Positions 37,148-44,285 of a stretch of 44,285 bases of DNA are shown here, piece after piece. The notes under the pieces were generated by a model. That model worked only from the letters and a program-made list of their open reading frames with translations. It ran no database searches and had not been told where the DNA came from. Made by a program: the position numbers and the translations under genes. This DNA comes from Crinalium epipsammum PCC 9333 (GTDB lineage: Bacteria; Cyanobacteriota; Cyanobacteriia; Cyanobacteriales; PCC-9333), in the NCBI RefSeq assembly GCF_000317495.1, contig NC_019735.1, positions 1 through 44,285 of the forward strand, given 5' to 3'. Positions within the stretch are counted from its first letter, which is position 1. Each line of letters starts with the position of its first letter.

Positions 37148-37171
37148 GTGGTAAATACGTTTGTTAAAAAA

Positions 37172-38266
37172 ATGCAACTCAAATCTTACCCAAAGCCCAA
37201 ACATCCTTGGCTACAAAAATGTCTAGCTCAACTCACAAAAATACCCCACATCCAGATTGATACAACAACGGTTGTAGAACCTCGTCCACCTGCCGATGCT
37301 TTATTAACTATTGTTACTCCTCAACAGATAAATCTGAAATATATTGTTTTTATCAAATCTAATGTAACTCTAAAAACGCTAGATATAGTAATTGAATATC
37401 TAACTTTTTTCCAGCCAAAAGAACACGATGATCCCAGCCCGCTATTGGTTACAGATACCTTATCTGATGCAGTAATTCAAGCATTAATTGAACAAAATAT
37501 TGAATTTATTGATACTACAGGTAATACTTACCTGAATAATTCATCCTTTTATATTTTAATAAAAAACAGTGCAGTTCAGAGTAATAAATTATCTAATTCC
37601 TCAATTACTACCAGCACTTTAAAAGTTGCCTACGCTATCCTACAAGATCCAACAATCTTAAAAGCTCACTCTAAAAAACTAGAAGAAGTTGCTGGAGTTG
37701 ACTTGAAAACTGCTAAACGCAGCTTGCAAAGCTTGTGTAAACTTAATTATTTACAGCGTCAAAAAGGTAATCAATATCGAATTGAAAATTACCTAAAGCT
37801 GATCGAAAGATGGAATATGGGATATGTAGAAAACTTACGTTCAGAACTTTTAATAGATACATTTAGCCCAATTCTATATCATCAGTTTTCAGAGATATTC
37901 AACGAAATCATAGACCTAGCTAAAACTGACAAATTTTTAATTGGAGGAGAACTTGGTGCTGCCCTCATTACAAATTACTTAAAACCAATCAGCGCCGTTA
38001 TCCATATTCCAAAAGAACAGAATTATCGGCTCATCACTGCTAAGTTGCGTCTCCGACCAGACCCGCAAGGAAATATTAGCATTCTTAAACAATTTGGAAG
38101 TAAGAACACCTCGGATAATAATTACCCAAATTTTGTAGTAGATCCCTTATTAATTTATGCTGAATTAGCTTTACATCCAGACGAGCGTTTAAAAGAAACA
38201 GCTAACCGTCTTTACCACCAATATATTTCTGATAAACAAGAAATTGCACTCGATGCTGTAGCATGA
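37172..38266 (+). CDS. abiEi: AbiEi-family antitoxin (type IV TA)
   Basis: 364 residues from the ATG at 37172; a GTG at 37148 extends it by eight. Residues about 150-220 form a winged helix (TLKVAYAILQDPTILKAHSK, then KTAKRSLQSLCKLNYLQRQK), and the C-terminal part holds IGGELGAALITNYLKPISAV typical of AbiEi-like antitoxins. The gene overlaps its partner by four bases (ATGA). AbiE systems give phage resistance and plasmid stability: the antitoxin represses the operon and counteracts the nucleotidyltransferase toxin. Confidence 0.8.
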   Translation: MQLKSYPKPKHPWLQKCLAQLTKIPHIQIDTTTVVEPRPPADALLTIVTPQQINLKYIVFIKSNVTLKTLDIVIEYLTFFQPKEHDDPSPLLVTDTLSDAVIQALIEQNIEFIDTTGNTYLNNSSFYILIKNSAVQSNKLSNSSITTSTLKVAYAILQDPTILKAHSKKLEEVAGVDLKTAKRSLQSLCKLNYLQRQKGNQYRIENYLKLIERWNMGYVENLRSELLIDTFSPILYHQFSEIFNEIIDLAKTDKFLIGGELGAALITNYLKPISAVIHIPKEQNYRLITAKLRLRPDPQGNISILKQFGSKNTSDNNYPNFVVDPLLIYAELALHPDERLKETANRLYHQYISDKQEIALDAVA

Positions 38267-39132
38267 ACGAGCCACAATTTGAACTAGACCCAAATACAAA
38301 ACAAATTCTTACTGATCTAAAAACGGTCAGCGAGCAATTACAAGTTCCAATACTCTTGGTTGGTGCTAGAGCCAGAGGTTTTATCTTTGATAATCAATAT
38401 GGAGTTGAGGGTCGAGCAACTACAGATTGGGATGTGGCAGTAAAGTTGGATAGTTGGGAGCTTTACGATGCGTTAGTAAATAAAATGACTACTGGGGAAA
38501 CTGCTCTCTTTAAAAAAACCCGTGTCATGCACAAATTCATCCACCTGAAAACACAATTAGAAGTTGACGTTATTCCCTTTGGAAATATTAGCAATGAACG
38601 CCAAGAAATTACCTGGAATGATGGCAATATTATGAGTGTTTTAGGTTTTGAGGAAGCCTTTTCAAATACACCAATTGAAACAATTGATGATATTACAATT
38701 AGGATTGTACCCCTGACTGCTTTTATGGCGTTAAAACTCTTAGCTTGGAATGAACGCCGAGCAAATAAAGATTTAGAAGATATTATTTTTATTCTTGAAA
38801 ATTATTATATCCCAAACCGTGACGAAGAAGACCGAATGTTTAGGGAATTTAATAGCGAAATCTTTGAAGAAAATAAGTTGGAGTTTTATGAAGCAGCTAT
38901 CGCTCTGCTGGGTAGAGATATTAGCAAAATATTTTCAGAAGAAACTATTAATAAAGTGAAACAAATTCTGGCACAAATTATTACTTTTCAAACTCAGTAT
39001 TTACCAGGATTTATATCGAAAAATTTAGATGGAGATGCTTGGGATAAAGAGTTTGATCGCCTTGTGAGGCGATTGGAAGCACTCCAATATGGTCTAGAAA
39101 ATACTACAACAATATACGACTTAGACTCTTAA
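38263..39132 (+). CDS. abiEii: AbiEii-like nucleotidyltransferase toxin
   Basis: 289 residues. The nucleotidyltransferase core is clear: LVGARARGFIF (GAR at 34-36 in place of the usual GS) and TTDWDVAVKL with paired Asp 55 and 57. LEVDVIPFG carries the third acidic residue, and LTAFMALKLLAWNERRANKD the family KLxAwxxR motif with a downstream Asp. It is expected to transfer nucleotides to an RNA target. The frame overlaps the antitoxin start to stop, and its end overlaps the convergent recombinase by four bases. Confidence 0.8.
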   Translation: MNEPQFELDPNTKQILTDLKTVSEQLQVPILLVGARARGFIFDNQYGVEGRATTDWDVAVKLDSWELYDALVNKMTTGETALFKKTRVMHKFIHLKTQLEVDVIPFGNISNERQEITWNDGNIMSVLGFEEAFSNTPIETIDDITIRIVPLTAFMALKLLAWNERRANKDLEDIIFILENYYIPNRDEEDRMFREFNSEIFEENKLEFYEAAIALLGRDISKIFSEETINKVKQILAQIITFQTQYLPGFISKNLDGDAWDKEFDRLVRRLEALQYGLENTTTIYDLDS

Positions 39133-41895: not shown

Positions 41896-42417
41896 TTTAG
41901 TATTTCGTAGAACAGAGTTTGAGTTTGGATTGAGTAACCTCATTATTCTTCACTACTTAGTATTATTTATAGTCTGTTACGCGCGGATTGCAGGTACTAA
42001 CGCACCCCTATCGTGGTGCCTAATAAAAAGTACCGTGATTGTTGAAATTATTTTTCCCTTGTTGCACTGCTTTCTAGGACTGCCTTATTGTATTACTATC
42101 TCTAACTGCACTGCACTTTTTGACAGTTCTGCTGCATCTTGATTCCTTGCTGCACTTTCTAACGGCACACCCTAAACTGTTACAAGTGAAAAAAATTGCA
42201 CCTTTTTTAATCTGCGATAGCAGGTTTAGAAGTATGAGTTTTCACGCTTGGTCGCTCTGTTCAATATCGCCTATAACTGCGCCTGGAAAACCTTGCGAAA
42301 CAATTGACACCATTTCCGAAGTTTTAGTAGCTATAAAAGTATCTATAGCTGCTTTAAGGTGAAAGAGCGTTAGTAACATAATCTCATTCCTAAATAGCTC
42401 CCAATCGCTCACCCAAA
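41896..42417. other. Non-coding region containing dispersed repeat copy 4
   Basis: Holds the repeat copy at 42002-42067 and its degenerate ACTGCAC-rich tail to about 42160. The remainder shows no gene or clear signal. Confidence 0.5.
42002..42067 (+). repeat. Dispersed hairpin repeat, copy 4
   Basis: Hairpin GCACC/GGTGC (42002-42019), then AATAAAAAGTACCGTGATTG, TTGAAATTA and TTGCAC. The 25-base core from AATAAAAAG is identical or nearly so to copies 1 and 3. Confidence 0.8.
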
Positions 42418-42759
42418 TCAAGCAAATCCCTTCGAGCGATTGGGCGGAAACGTTCCCTGCTTGGCACTATATCTGTTTAAAATTCGCTGCAACCGCTCGT
42501 TAGAGTAATAAGGCAGCGAGACTGTGTACCAGTCAGTTAGATTTTTAGAACCTTTGCTACTGTTGCATTTGGCACAGGCTGGCACTAAGTTTAGCCATGA
42601 ATTGATACCTCCTTGCGAAGAAGCTACTACATGGTCTAGGGTTAAGCGTTTAGACTTGGAACCACAGTAGGCACAGCAATGATTAAACTCTGATTTAATC
42701 GTCTCTTTTACTTTAGCTTTTACACTTTTGTGCCTAACGAAGTCGAAAATTTGCTGCAT
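42418..42759 (-). CDS. HNH endonuclease
   Basis: 113 residues from the ATG at 42759 (a TTG seven codons upstream is possible). Full HNH motif: CAYCGSKSKRLTLDHVVASS, GGINSWLNLVPACAKCNSSK with both CxxC pairs, the DH dyad and the Asn. A compact nuclease of the type found beside mobile and defence genes. It has no visible clamp-binding motif, unlike the intron-split HNH at 705. Its target is unknown. Confidence 0.85.
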   Translation of the reverse strand: MQQIFDFVRHKSVKAKVKETIKSEFNHCCAYCGSKSKRLTLDHVVASSQGGINSWLNLVPACAKCNSSKGSKNLTDWYTVSLPYYSNERLQRILNRYSAKQGTFPPNRSKGFA

Positions 42760-42857
42760 TCTGCAATCCGGTTTAGTCAAGAAAAAAACTTGATATTCCT
42801 ATAAGTATGCGTTGCGATCGCTCTTTTTAAGCAATAGGAAAACTACTGACGGGTACT

Positions 42858-43205
42858 TCAATTGGGCGAACCGAAACGCTCTTTTAGAGCTTGAATTATT
42901 ACTTCCGTCATTGTTATTCCGTGCCGTTTAGATTCTGCTGCCCAATGTCGTCTGAGTGATTCAGGCACTTTTACGCAGAGGTTGACTTCTCTTTCTCGCT
43001 CAATCTGGTTTTCTGGTTCTACTGTTGGCTGATTCTCTTGTTTGATGGTGTTCTGGTTTTCTGCATCACCCTCTGTCTGCTCTACAGGCTGGTTAGTAAT
43101 CTGGTTATCTGGTTTTACTGCTAACTGGTTTTCTGGCTCAGGAACTTCTTGACTATCTGTTTCTCTCGCTTTGCGAATCAAATCCCCATATTTAGAATTA
43201 GCCAT
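42858..43205 (-). CDS. parB: RHH partner of ParA (ParB-like adaptor)
   Basis: 115 residues. An acidic/Asn-rich low-complexity region with ENQ repeats fills residues about 20-68. The C-terminus is a ribbon-helix-helix (REVNLCVKVPESLRRHWAAE, then RHGITMTEVIIQALKERFG). Its ATG overlaps the ParA stop by eight bases. The RHH domain is the probable binder of the 8-bp CTGGTT array upstream of parA. The same motif recurs in its own coding region in two reading frames (43005-43138), so the ENQ-rich segment appears shaped by DNA-level selection. Confidence 0.8.
   Translation of the reverse strand: MANSKYGDLIRKARETDSQEVPEPENQLAVKPDNQITNQPVEQTEGDAENQNTIKQENQPTVEPENQIEREREVNLCVKVPESLRRHWAAESKRHGITMTEVIIQALKERFGSPN
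43005..43138. repeat. Intragenic CTGGTT array, 8-bp register, within the RHH partner gene
   Basis: CTGGTT copies start at 43005, 43013, 43053, 43101, 43109, 43125 and (as CTGGCT) 43133, all the same modulo 8. One extra at 43089 is out of register. They are read in more than one codon frame (aac cag gives NQ, g-aac-ca-g gives EP/KP), so protein constraint alone does not explain the spacing. Confidence 0.7.
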
Positions 43206-43800
43206 TTCCTAAAACCTCCATAATTTCTTTGCCAAGTGCCAAATAATCTAACCATGCAACCCTTGCCTTTGAGGAAGAAACGTCTCTAATAGGGACACCT
43301 TCAAAAGCAGCTTTTTGAAATCCAGCAGCGCGGCGAATCATAGTCTTGAAAACGGGAATACCGTTATCTATAAGTTCGGAGCGTATTGCTGCTCCTTCTT
43401 TACTAGGTGAGGGAGGAACTATTACCAGTAAAGCCCTGTAGTTTGCTGCACCTAAATCGCTTGCCGTTTTTAACATCGGTTCCAAACTCACGACATCTGG
43501 AATTGTTGGCAAGATGAGTAAGTCACAGCCTTTTGCCAACTCTTTTAAGTCGCTTGAGTCTGGTCGGGCTGGAGTGTCAATCACTACAAAATCATTACCC
43601 GAAATCAACTTCATTGCTTGTCGCTCATCAGCCACAGTAAAAGGAAGGCTTCCCCGACTCGACCATGCTAGGGCAGTGCGATTTGGGTCAGAGTCTACCA
43701 GAATGGTTTTCCCAATATCGCTAAAGAATGTCGCAATGTGTATGGCAGTTGTCGATTTCGATATACCGCCTTTGTATCCAGTGACAGTTAAAATCTTCAT
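43198..43800 (-). CDS. parA: ParA-family partition ATPase
   Basis: 200 residues, a compact ParA. Deviant Walker A TGYKGGISKSTTA (about 7-19), Walker A'-like LVDSDPNRTALAWSS, Walker B FVVIDTPARPDSSDL, and PTIPDVVSLEPML. It lacks an N-terminal HTH, so it is a ParA2/Soj-like type paired with an RHH adaptor. It provides the ATP-driven movement of plasmid copies over the nucleoid. It is followed by the RHH gene with an 8-base overlap and preceded by the octad array, which would act as both centromere and operator. Confidence 0.9.
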   Translation of the reverse strand: MKILTVTGYKGGISKSTTAIHIATFFSDIGKTILVDSDPNRTALAWSSRGSLPFTVADERQAMKLISGNDFVVIDTPARPDSSDLKELAKGCDLLILPTIPDVVSLEPMLKTASDLGAANYRALLVIVPPSPSKEGAAIRSELIDNGIPVFKTMIRRAAGFQKAAFEGVPIRDVSSSKARVAWLDYLALGKEIMEVLGNG

Positions 43801-43872
43801 CTGGTAATCTGGTTTGCTGGTTATATTGTAAACTGGTTAGCAAGTTTTATGGTTATCTGGTTTTACAGATAA
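43801..43872. repeat. parS: Tandem 8-bp CTGGTT array upstream of parA (centromere/operator)
   Basis: Exact or near copies start at 43801, 43809, 43817, 43833, 43849 (ATGGTT) and 43857: all multiples of eight apart, with two weak units (43825, 43841) filling the register. It abuts the parA start codon. Established parallel: the omega RHH regulator binds contiguous 7-bp heptads that serve as centromere and promoter operator. Here the unit is an octad. Confidence 0.78.
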
Positions 43873-44134
43873 CACTTATCCATTGTTTTTGCAAGGGACT
43901 AGGAAAGTCTTAGTCTGACAAGCGTACTGAAAGGTTATGCAGTAACACCAATCCTGGTGGGGTCTACTTAAAAGGGAGCGATCGCTCCCTAAGCAAAAAA
44001 ATACTGATTGAGCAAATTACTACCATAAAAACACTACACTTATCCAACCTTGCAATAAAAATTAAAAAGAGTGTTTGTTAAATTGAGCATCAGCTTTTTT
44101 AATAAGTTGCTTGTAAAAACTCCCGTGAAATTGA
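43873..44134. other. Intergenic region after the parA operator
   Basis: No gene is evident. AT-rich, with a HIP1 site in GGGAGCGATCGCTCCC (43975-43990), a 16-bp perfect palindrome that could be a terminator or a protein-binding site. Nothing else is clear. Confidence 0.4.
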
Positions 44135-44285
44135 CCTATAACCTGTACAAAATCCAATTTACAACCAATCACACCAATAGCACTACAAACAGCCCCTCAA
44201 GCTAAATTAAACGGATTTTTCAAAGAACAAGCTGATCTTAGAGGATTAATTTTGACTCCTATTAAATGTTGGTCACAAATTAAAA
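44135..44285 (+). CDS. Open frame running off the window end, no clear start
   Basis: From a TGA at 44132 the frame stays open to the end, with coding-like sequence such as LNGFFKEQADLRGLILTPIK. No start codon of quality is visible, so it is either a partial gene starting inside this stretch at a rare codon or a relic. Family not recognised. Confidence 0.3.

Follow-up and report, generated by a model that had tools for sequence, protein, structure and literature searches.

In Bacillus subtilis, a site for a centromere-binding protein (CBP) is located inside the gene of that protein: parS lies within spo0J. This parS is one 16-bp palindrome for an HTH ParB with a CTP clamp, and is not an iterated array in linker codons. 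The ori region of gene O in phage lambda encodes an interdomain stretch of the protein. The parH centromere of TP228 is composed of 4-bp boxes and 4-bp spacers, an arrangement that would equal an 8-bp period. As described in several reports, the CBPs of type Ib partition systems are ribbon-helix-helix (RHH) proteins, which possess flexible N-termini and bind short iterated sites (PMC9499535, PMC7308502, PMC5016525). According to two of these sources, the RHH domain coats the iterated sites, which act as both operator and centromere, and the mobile tail of the RHH protein stimulates the ATPase activity of ParA (PMC5016525, PMC7308502). For omega, one dimer binds to each 7-bp repeat, and full activation of ParA needs at least four contiguous repeats (PMC9499535). 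Among the matches listed in the open-access literature (titles and the starts of abstracts), there was no RHH CBP with a site array in its own gene and no cyanobacterial case of a CBP site array in its own gene. Here we describe a cyanobacterial par locus in which an array of 8-bp units upstream of parA recurs within the codons of the RHH-like partner protein.

Results

The par locus and its plasmid

The window (the whole stretch of DNA that was analysed, 44,285 bp) corresponds to contig C3 in a cyanobacterial genome of 5.62 Mb. Because its end and start adjoin in a homologous stretch of contig C7, the window is suggested to be a circular plasmid of 44,285 bp. Contigs C2 (53,213 bp), C3 and C7 (50,800 bp) are three related mosaic plasmids of one cell. 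Their par modules are near-identical (ParA identity 97-100%, DNA identity about 92-93%), and the sharing of one module raises the question of how these plasmids stay compatible.

The parA open reading frame (ORF; positions 43198 to 43800, minus strand) encodes a 200-aa Walker-type partition ATPase with a KGGISKST motif at the N-terminus. Its product matched Pfam CbiA with 36 bits (cut-off 25.4) and PHROG 164 (ParA-like) with an E-value of 7.7e-25. The match to NCBIfam ParA_partition has an E-value of 8.7e-22, yet is under the curated cut-off of that family. By tblastn, ParA matched 1390 plasmid records; in the viral contigs scanned, no ParA relative was confirmed. A ParA of 200 aa is too short for an additional N-terminal DNA-binding domain. 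Thus, the locus possesses a small Walker-type ParA of the type Ib kind, and an array of short repeats is located upstream of its gene, as in type Ib systems.

Several neighbouring genes were also observed. An HNH endonuclease gene (Pfam; 42418 to 42780, minus strand) is located downstream of the RHH gene, and an annotated HNH gene also follows the RHH gene in Synechocystis pSYSM (L010), in pSYLB and in a B12 plasmid (L094, L097). An AbiEi/AbiEii-type toxin-antitoxin pair (Pfam) is encoded at 37148 to 39132 on the plus strand. Nostoc plasmid pNe_4 has two parA-RHH modules (L001 and L093), and contig C6 of genome G280 has three closely similar parA copies (positions 80106, 109637 and 110380).

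Two arrays of octads

On the plus strand of the window, CTGGTT occurs 24 times and 11 of these are within 43005-43862. The opposite orientation (AACCAG on the plus strand) occurs 21 times in the window and not at all within 43005-43862. The in-gene array (43005 to 43130, minus strand) contains seven AACCAG units, whereas every 135-nt stretch that begins in the first 42.8 kb has at most one. Six of the seven (43005, 43013, 43053, 43101, 43109 and 43125) are at phase 5 modulo 8, and the remaining unit (43089 to 43094, minus strand) is 4 bp out of phase. The upstream array (43801 to 43862, minus strand) ends at the parA start codon and contains five ACCAG units in one phase (lag-8 z 3.4). Units at 43809, 43817, 43833 and 43857 are at phase 1 modulo 8, and this phase is also kept by CTGGTA at 43801 and by a degenerate ATGGTT (TGGTT from 43850). 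The two arrays are about 0.7 kb apart.

The first-pass annotation had described these octads as present upstream of parA and duplicated in register, at a constant modulo-8 phase, within the RHH gene. The octads are indeed present at both places and, except for the unit at 43089, each array keeps one phase. However, the phases of the two arrays are 4 apart and there is no common register across parA; "duplicated in register" is therefore too strong. The same annotation had the octads read in different codon frames, and this agrees with our results: two frames are used in the window, AAC-CAG (N-Q) and AAA-CCA-GAT (K-P-D) or GAA-CCA-GAA (E-P-E), and all three are used across the family. Because 8 and 3 have no common factor, a full cycle takes 24 nt, which in the gene of the window is read, for example, as K-P-D-N-Q-I-T-N.

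The concentration of octads at the par locus is far beyond chance. In the RHH gene of the window, seven ACCAG are present, whereas synonymous shuffling predicts 1.9 (p 0.0008). Nine copies of the double octad AACCAGNNAACCAG are found in the 5.62-Mb genome; eight are at the par loci of C2, C3 (the window) and C7, and the ninth is in a chromosomal ORF of 380 aa. The reversed control pattern is absent from this genome. Exact triple octads were found in four of 386 genomes (none in the genome of the window; reversed control, two genomes). Those in G095 and G143 adjoin an RHH gene and those in G360 and G149 form simple tandem repeats that are not near par. At non-par positions in two other cyanobacteria, there are perfect tandem repeats of an octamer with the AACCAG core (L108, 1501-1553; L105, 1502-1530).

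By its position, the upstream array is likely an operator/centromere. A sigma-70 scan of 42300-44285 detected two promoter-like sites on the strand opposite to the operon, where 3.4 were expected, and none on the operon's own strand, so the operator role is assigned by position only.

The RHH-like partner protein

The end of parA is overlapped by an ORF (42858 to 43205, minus strand) for a 115-aa partner, which is a putative DNA-binding protein. Three parts can be distinguished on the minus strand: codons of a conserved N-terminal helix (KYGDLIRKARETD; 43155 to 43193), which spans residues 5-17 or 5-16 in the models; codons of a disordered linker bearing the in-gene array (42990 to 43154), where most of residues 22-63 score below 50 in pLDDT; and codons of an RHH-like domain (42861 to 42989), in which a candidate strand, VNLCVKV, is followed by two helices. 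In alignment A1 (14 sequences), the linker varies between a conserved N-terminal helix and a conserved RHH-like domain.

The AlphaFold2 model, which was built on seven sequences, has a helix at residues 5-16, a linker mostly below pLDDT 50 and helices at residues 82-95 and 99-111 above 90; the VNLCVKV stretch precedes this confident two-helix C-terminal domain. Single-sequence folding was poor. The best structural matches are the RHH proteins PutA, Arc, CopG, ParG and omega, with modest Z-scores (3.8-4.8); ParG (1p94) has a Z-score of 4.1 and an rmsd of 10.8. Foldseek matches of the model have E-values above 0.4. At the sequence level, Pfam gave no match above cut-off, searches of NCBIfam and of PDB sequences gave no name, and the A1 profile found no PDB chain at an E-value of 1 or better. 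PHROGs gave an Arc-like match at an E-value of 0.015. The downstream position and the disordered linker match the layout of type Ib CBPs; the RHH fold is a candidate, with modest scores. The N-terminal helix is proposed as the likely contact with ParA.

The register belongs to the DNA

We measured the spacing of consecutive in-gene units in cyanobacterial loci with at least two units each. In 18 loci, which include the window and its two paralogues, 50 of 54 spacings are multiples of 8, and 8 of 54 are multiples of 3, under the one-third expected by chance. Twenty loci had been listed for this count; L049 and L021 were dropped (fewer than two units), and L020 was omitted as identical to L050. 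The upstream spacings of the close group behave in the same manner (36 of 38 are multiples of 8). For 10 cluster representatives, 27 of 31 in-gene spacings are multiples of 8 (binomial p 8e-21) and 4 of 31 are multiples of 3. Therefore, the register is a property of the DNA and not of the codons. A protein tandem repeat, whose unit is a multiple of 3 nt held in one frame, is not what the octad loci have.

Synonymous shuffles were performed for 17 linkers, leaving out L006 (frameshifted) and L049 and L021 (other motif); L006 is on pAQ4 of PCC 7002 (594-779), where the annotation gives the RHH gene as a short ORF with an early end in another frame, and an intact relative is present on pAQ7 (L008) of this strain. 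ACCAG was observed 69 times against an expected 16.7 (maximum 33 in 5000 shuffles), and in-phase neighbour pairs 48 times against 4.2 (maximum 14). The codon bias is visible in single dipeptides: 29 of 42 N-Q dipeptides in the linkers are coded AACCAG, compared with 3 of 26 in the other mechanical ORFs of the window (Fisher p 4e-6). A matrix was then built from the upstream ACCAG sites of other clusters. It scored the same 17 linkers at 1040 against a null mean of 389 (null maximum 525 in 1000) with p at or below 0.004 at every locus, the core being invariant by construction because the training sites were chosen by ACCAG. Codon weights were smoothed per locus with the pool in the shuffle and lag tests, and were pooled in the matrix test and the 6-mer test described below.

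Spacing, codon shuffles and matrix together show that the in-gene array is a DNA feature absorbed by the linker. It is a DNA-level and not a protein-level feature, with strong statistical support for the overlay. An excess was also seen in the remainder of the RHH gene, which was intended as a control (12 ACCAG against 3.6 shuffled, p 0.0004). By subtraction, 8 of these 12 are in five Nostoc loci with octad-bearing C-terminal tails, so this excess may be the same feature and the region is not a clean control.

At lag 8, 14 of the 17 linkers in the close group have z of 2 or more, and three (L015, L008 and L009) are below 2. L049 has one ACCAG upstream and one in the gene (linker z 1.0 at lag 8), too few units to judge. 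L021 has a linker repeat of 15 or 30 nt in a single codon frame, as in a protein tandem repeat. Both are positioned among the overlay loci in the ParA tree, with the register lost or weak. The first-pass annotation had proposed a DNA-level code over the coding sequence, and had named loss of the spacing in close relatives that keep the linker as the outcome against it. The proposal is supported by the 8-bp register, by the codon bias and by the prediction of in-gene arrays from upstream arrays. The spacings stay multiples of 8 (50 of 54) while the residues of the linkers differ; one relative, L021, has the single-frame repeat in place of the octad register.

Relatives with other motifs and the sister group

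Seven more distant relatives have other motifs. In these, the 6-mers shared by the upstream region and the linker number 214, compared with 101 after synonymous shuffling (maximum 142 in 2000). Six of the seven singly have p below 0.05, which extends the evidence for a DNA-level code beyond ACCAG. When the linker of each was compared with 45 other upstream regions, none scored as high as its own for four of the seven, and one, two and four did for the other three. Synechocystis pSYSM possesses A.GAA units with an 8-bp recurrence both upstream and in the linker. Of the 17 linkers of the close group, L005 and L008 singly do not pass the shared 6-mer test.

The sister group consists of 22 relatives with 43-52% ParA identity and other partner proteins. 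In the upstream DNA of 19 of the 22, lag 8 ranks third or higher. In contrast, none of the 22 linkers, whose ends in this control group were set by rough rules, reaches a z of 2 at lag 8. Shared 6-mers are nearly null in this group (279 against 236, p 0.01; 3 of 22 singly below 0.05). The 6-mer test was run without L034, L037 and L046 (no RHH-like partner found), L042 and L045, and without the non-family loci L017, L018 and L054; upstream lag values of L042 and L045 were not used.

In a ParA tree of 55 rows, groups A and B (overlay or shared words, 26 rows) are separated from the rest (29 rows) with a branch support of 100/99. The root is a midpoint only and L053 was left out; L034, L037, L042, L045, L046, L098 and L099 carry the label C by default and not by the 6-mer test. 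One reading of this distribution is that the upstream octads are old and that the in-gene copy had a single origin and was retained as the motif changed. In the Thermus plasmid L099, GC-rich repeat units were seen by eye before parA (1050-1192), inside the 3′ end of the upstream toprim gene. Perhaps this is another case of sites in coding DNA.

Substitutions between close relatives were also counted. Cores changed at 12 of 95 positions and spacers at 11 of 57, which in this underpowered comparison is not significantly rarer (p 0.35). Third-position depletion in the cores, likewise underpowered, is suggestive only (4 of 36 against 43 of 174, p 0.08). In the first octads of Picosynechococcus PCC 8807 (L091), there are four base differences: three are in spacers and one changes ACCAG to GCCAG.

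Discussion

The locus is probably a type Ib-like ParA-RHH system in which the operator/centromere array is repeated in the linker codons of the CBP gene. By analogy with described RHH partners, we propose that the RHH-like protein binds 8-bp sites with the consensus (A/T)ACCAGA(A/T), one dimer per octad and side by side. On the array ahead of parA, it would repress its own operon and mark the plasmid, and the coated array would be the seed of the partition complex. The second array is located in the codons of the flexible linker, which joins the N-terminal helix to the RHH-like domain. Because almost any residues are tolerated in a disordered linker, selection for octads at the DNA level could write the sequence of the linker. 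The in-gene array would extend or duplicate the CBP-coated centromere and would feed back on expression. A putative bridging between the upstream and in-gene arrays is possible. We also entertain, with somewhat less than even confidence, the idea that the centromere includes the CBP gene, whose linker codons would be shaped by selection for CBP-binding octads, so that the protein, its specificity and a share of its target form one cassette in which the operator, the linker codons and thereby the linker peptide drift together. If this is correct, the drift of such cassettes would give rise to new compatibility groups in the plasmid-rich cyanobacteria.

An unlikely alternative is that the in-gene octads bind the RHH-like protein for control of expression only, as a roadblock or internal operator, and are not a centromere. 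An internal site could adjust the amount of the RHH protein, given that its gene overlaps parA. In Picosynechococcus PCC 73109 (L090) and PCC 8807, parA is truncated and the in-gene octads remain, with no array visible in the 300 nt upstream of the remaining parA. Moreover, a Rippkaea plasmid (L092, 1672-1938) has an RHH gene without an adjoining parA; its N-terminal helix is gone, and seven CCAG units in one phase are retained immediately before the sole start codon of the open frame. These loci fit a role in expression. However, units are also enriched behind the gene. Across the 18 loci, the first 100 nt beyond the RHH stop codon contain 18 units in either orientation, 3 of them from L006 and uncertain because its frame ends early, compared with 77 in 33.8 kb of flanking DNA. 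L019, L005, L009 and L051 each have at least two ACCAG there, where no operon promoter is expected (L006 likewise has at least two, with the same early end of its frame). This enrichment is more in keeping with a centromere role than with promoter control alone. Furthermore, ParG performs both tasks, at parH and at the operator, in TP228 (PMC7308502).

It is very unlikely that the array is a neutral minisatellite, namely an octamer tandem repeat amplified by slippage in a permissive linker. Such a process would fit changes of length by 24 nt (three octads or eight codons), which were found in two of four alignments, the other two having no length change. In the C2 paralogue of the same cell, the linker is shorter by exactly 24 nt. 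Nostoc HK-01 (L007) exceeds its sisters by exactly 24 nt at one place; L007 also lacks 12 nt nearer the RHH-like domain, outside the in-phase units. In G360 and G149, perfect runs of the AACCAG octamer at a distance from par genes point in the same direction. In contrast, the cores are kept while the spacers vary: among 10 representatives, neighbouring octads have a common 3-nt spacer in 5 of 17 pairs within the linkers and in 1 of 8 pairs of the upstream arrays. Spacers so rarely shared argue against plain slippage, and slippage does not account for the motif on both sides of parA or for its joint change in the relatives with other motifs.

Gene conversion from the upstream operator, with the array retained mainly as a recombination track for swaps of specificity cassettes, is in our judgement highly improbable. 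Three mosaic plasmids of one cell share the par module and the motif turns over between relatives, in line with such swaps; however, recent copying would carry the spacers, which by eye are not alike in the upstream and in-gene arrays of a locus, and conversion does not account for a phase that is kept while spacers change. A repeat selected at the protein level for P-E/D-N-Q peptides, with the DNA periodicity as a by-product, is scarcely credible: PENQ- or PDNQ-like words do recur and L021 holds its repeat in one codon frame, but elsewhere the spacing is independent of the reading frame (multiples of 3 in 8 of 54 cases), all three frames are used, a quarter of the units are obtained by synonymous shuffling and the motif is also present upstream of parA, outside the gene. 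Thus, the protein-repeat and slippage readings do not fit when tested by spacing, shuffles, matrix and spacer comparison.

The locus offers a clean and quantifiable case of likely DNA-binding sites running through an ORF in a register of 8 bp rather than 3 nt, and on one side of the ParA tree the overlay has persisted while the motif has changed. This suggests that the sequences of some disordered linkers are explained by selection on DNA and not on protein. The binding motif of a CBP could then be read directly from its own gene, and the system would be a testable model for the evolution of partition specificity and for the coexistence of related plasmids in one cell.

Among described systems, delta/omega of pSM19035 also pairs ParA with an RHH CBP, and its centromeres are contiguous short direct and inverted repeats that overlap promoters, with a dimer on each unit (PMC9499535, PMC5016525). 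The delta/omega unit is the 7-bp WATCACW, in arrays described over promoter regions. In contrast, the unit here is 8 bp with an ACCAG core, does not follow WATCACW, and is also present inside the CBP gene, where it encodes the linker. The in-gene arrays have three to seven ACCAG units and are often gapped, which is short of the four contiguous repeats described for omega. TP228 ParF-ParG-parH likewise has a ParA-type ATPase and an RHH CBP with a mobile N-terminal tail, and its CBP acts at operator and centromere on degenerate tetramer boxes with AT-rich spacers (PMC7308502). Its motif differs, its operator is upstream of parFG, and the parts of the report available to us mention no site inside parG (PMC7308502).

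Two further systems place sites within genes. The parCAB system of Myxococcus pMF1 has CBP-bound iterons with a motif like AGATGTCT (8 nt), located on both sides of the par operon and within the ORFs pMF1.14 and pMF1.16 (PMC3235114). The ORFs named in the accessible text are not parB, and no register overlaid on codons is reported there (PMC3235114). In phage lambda, the ori iterons for a DNA-binding protein are inside its own gene O (PMC5043065, PMC4488673). These iterons are 19 bp and serve initiation of replication and not partition, and a second upstream array is not mentioned in the parts seen of these sources (PMC5043065, PMC4488673). On these accounts, lambda ori within gene O and the pMF1 iterons within ORFs are partial precedents for the arrangement described here.
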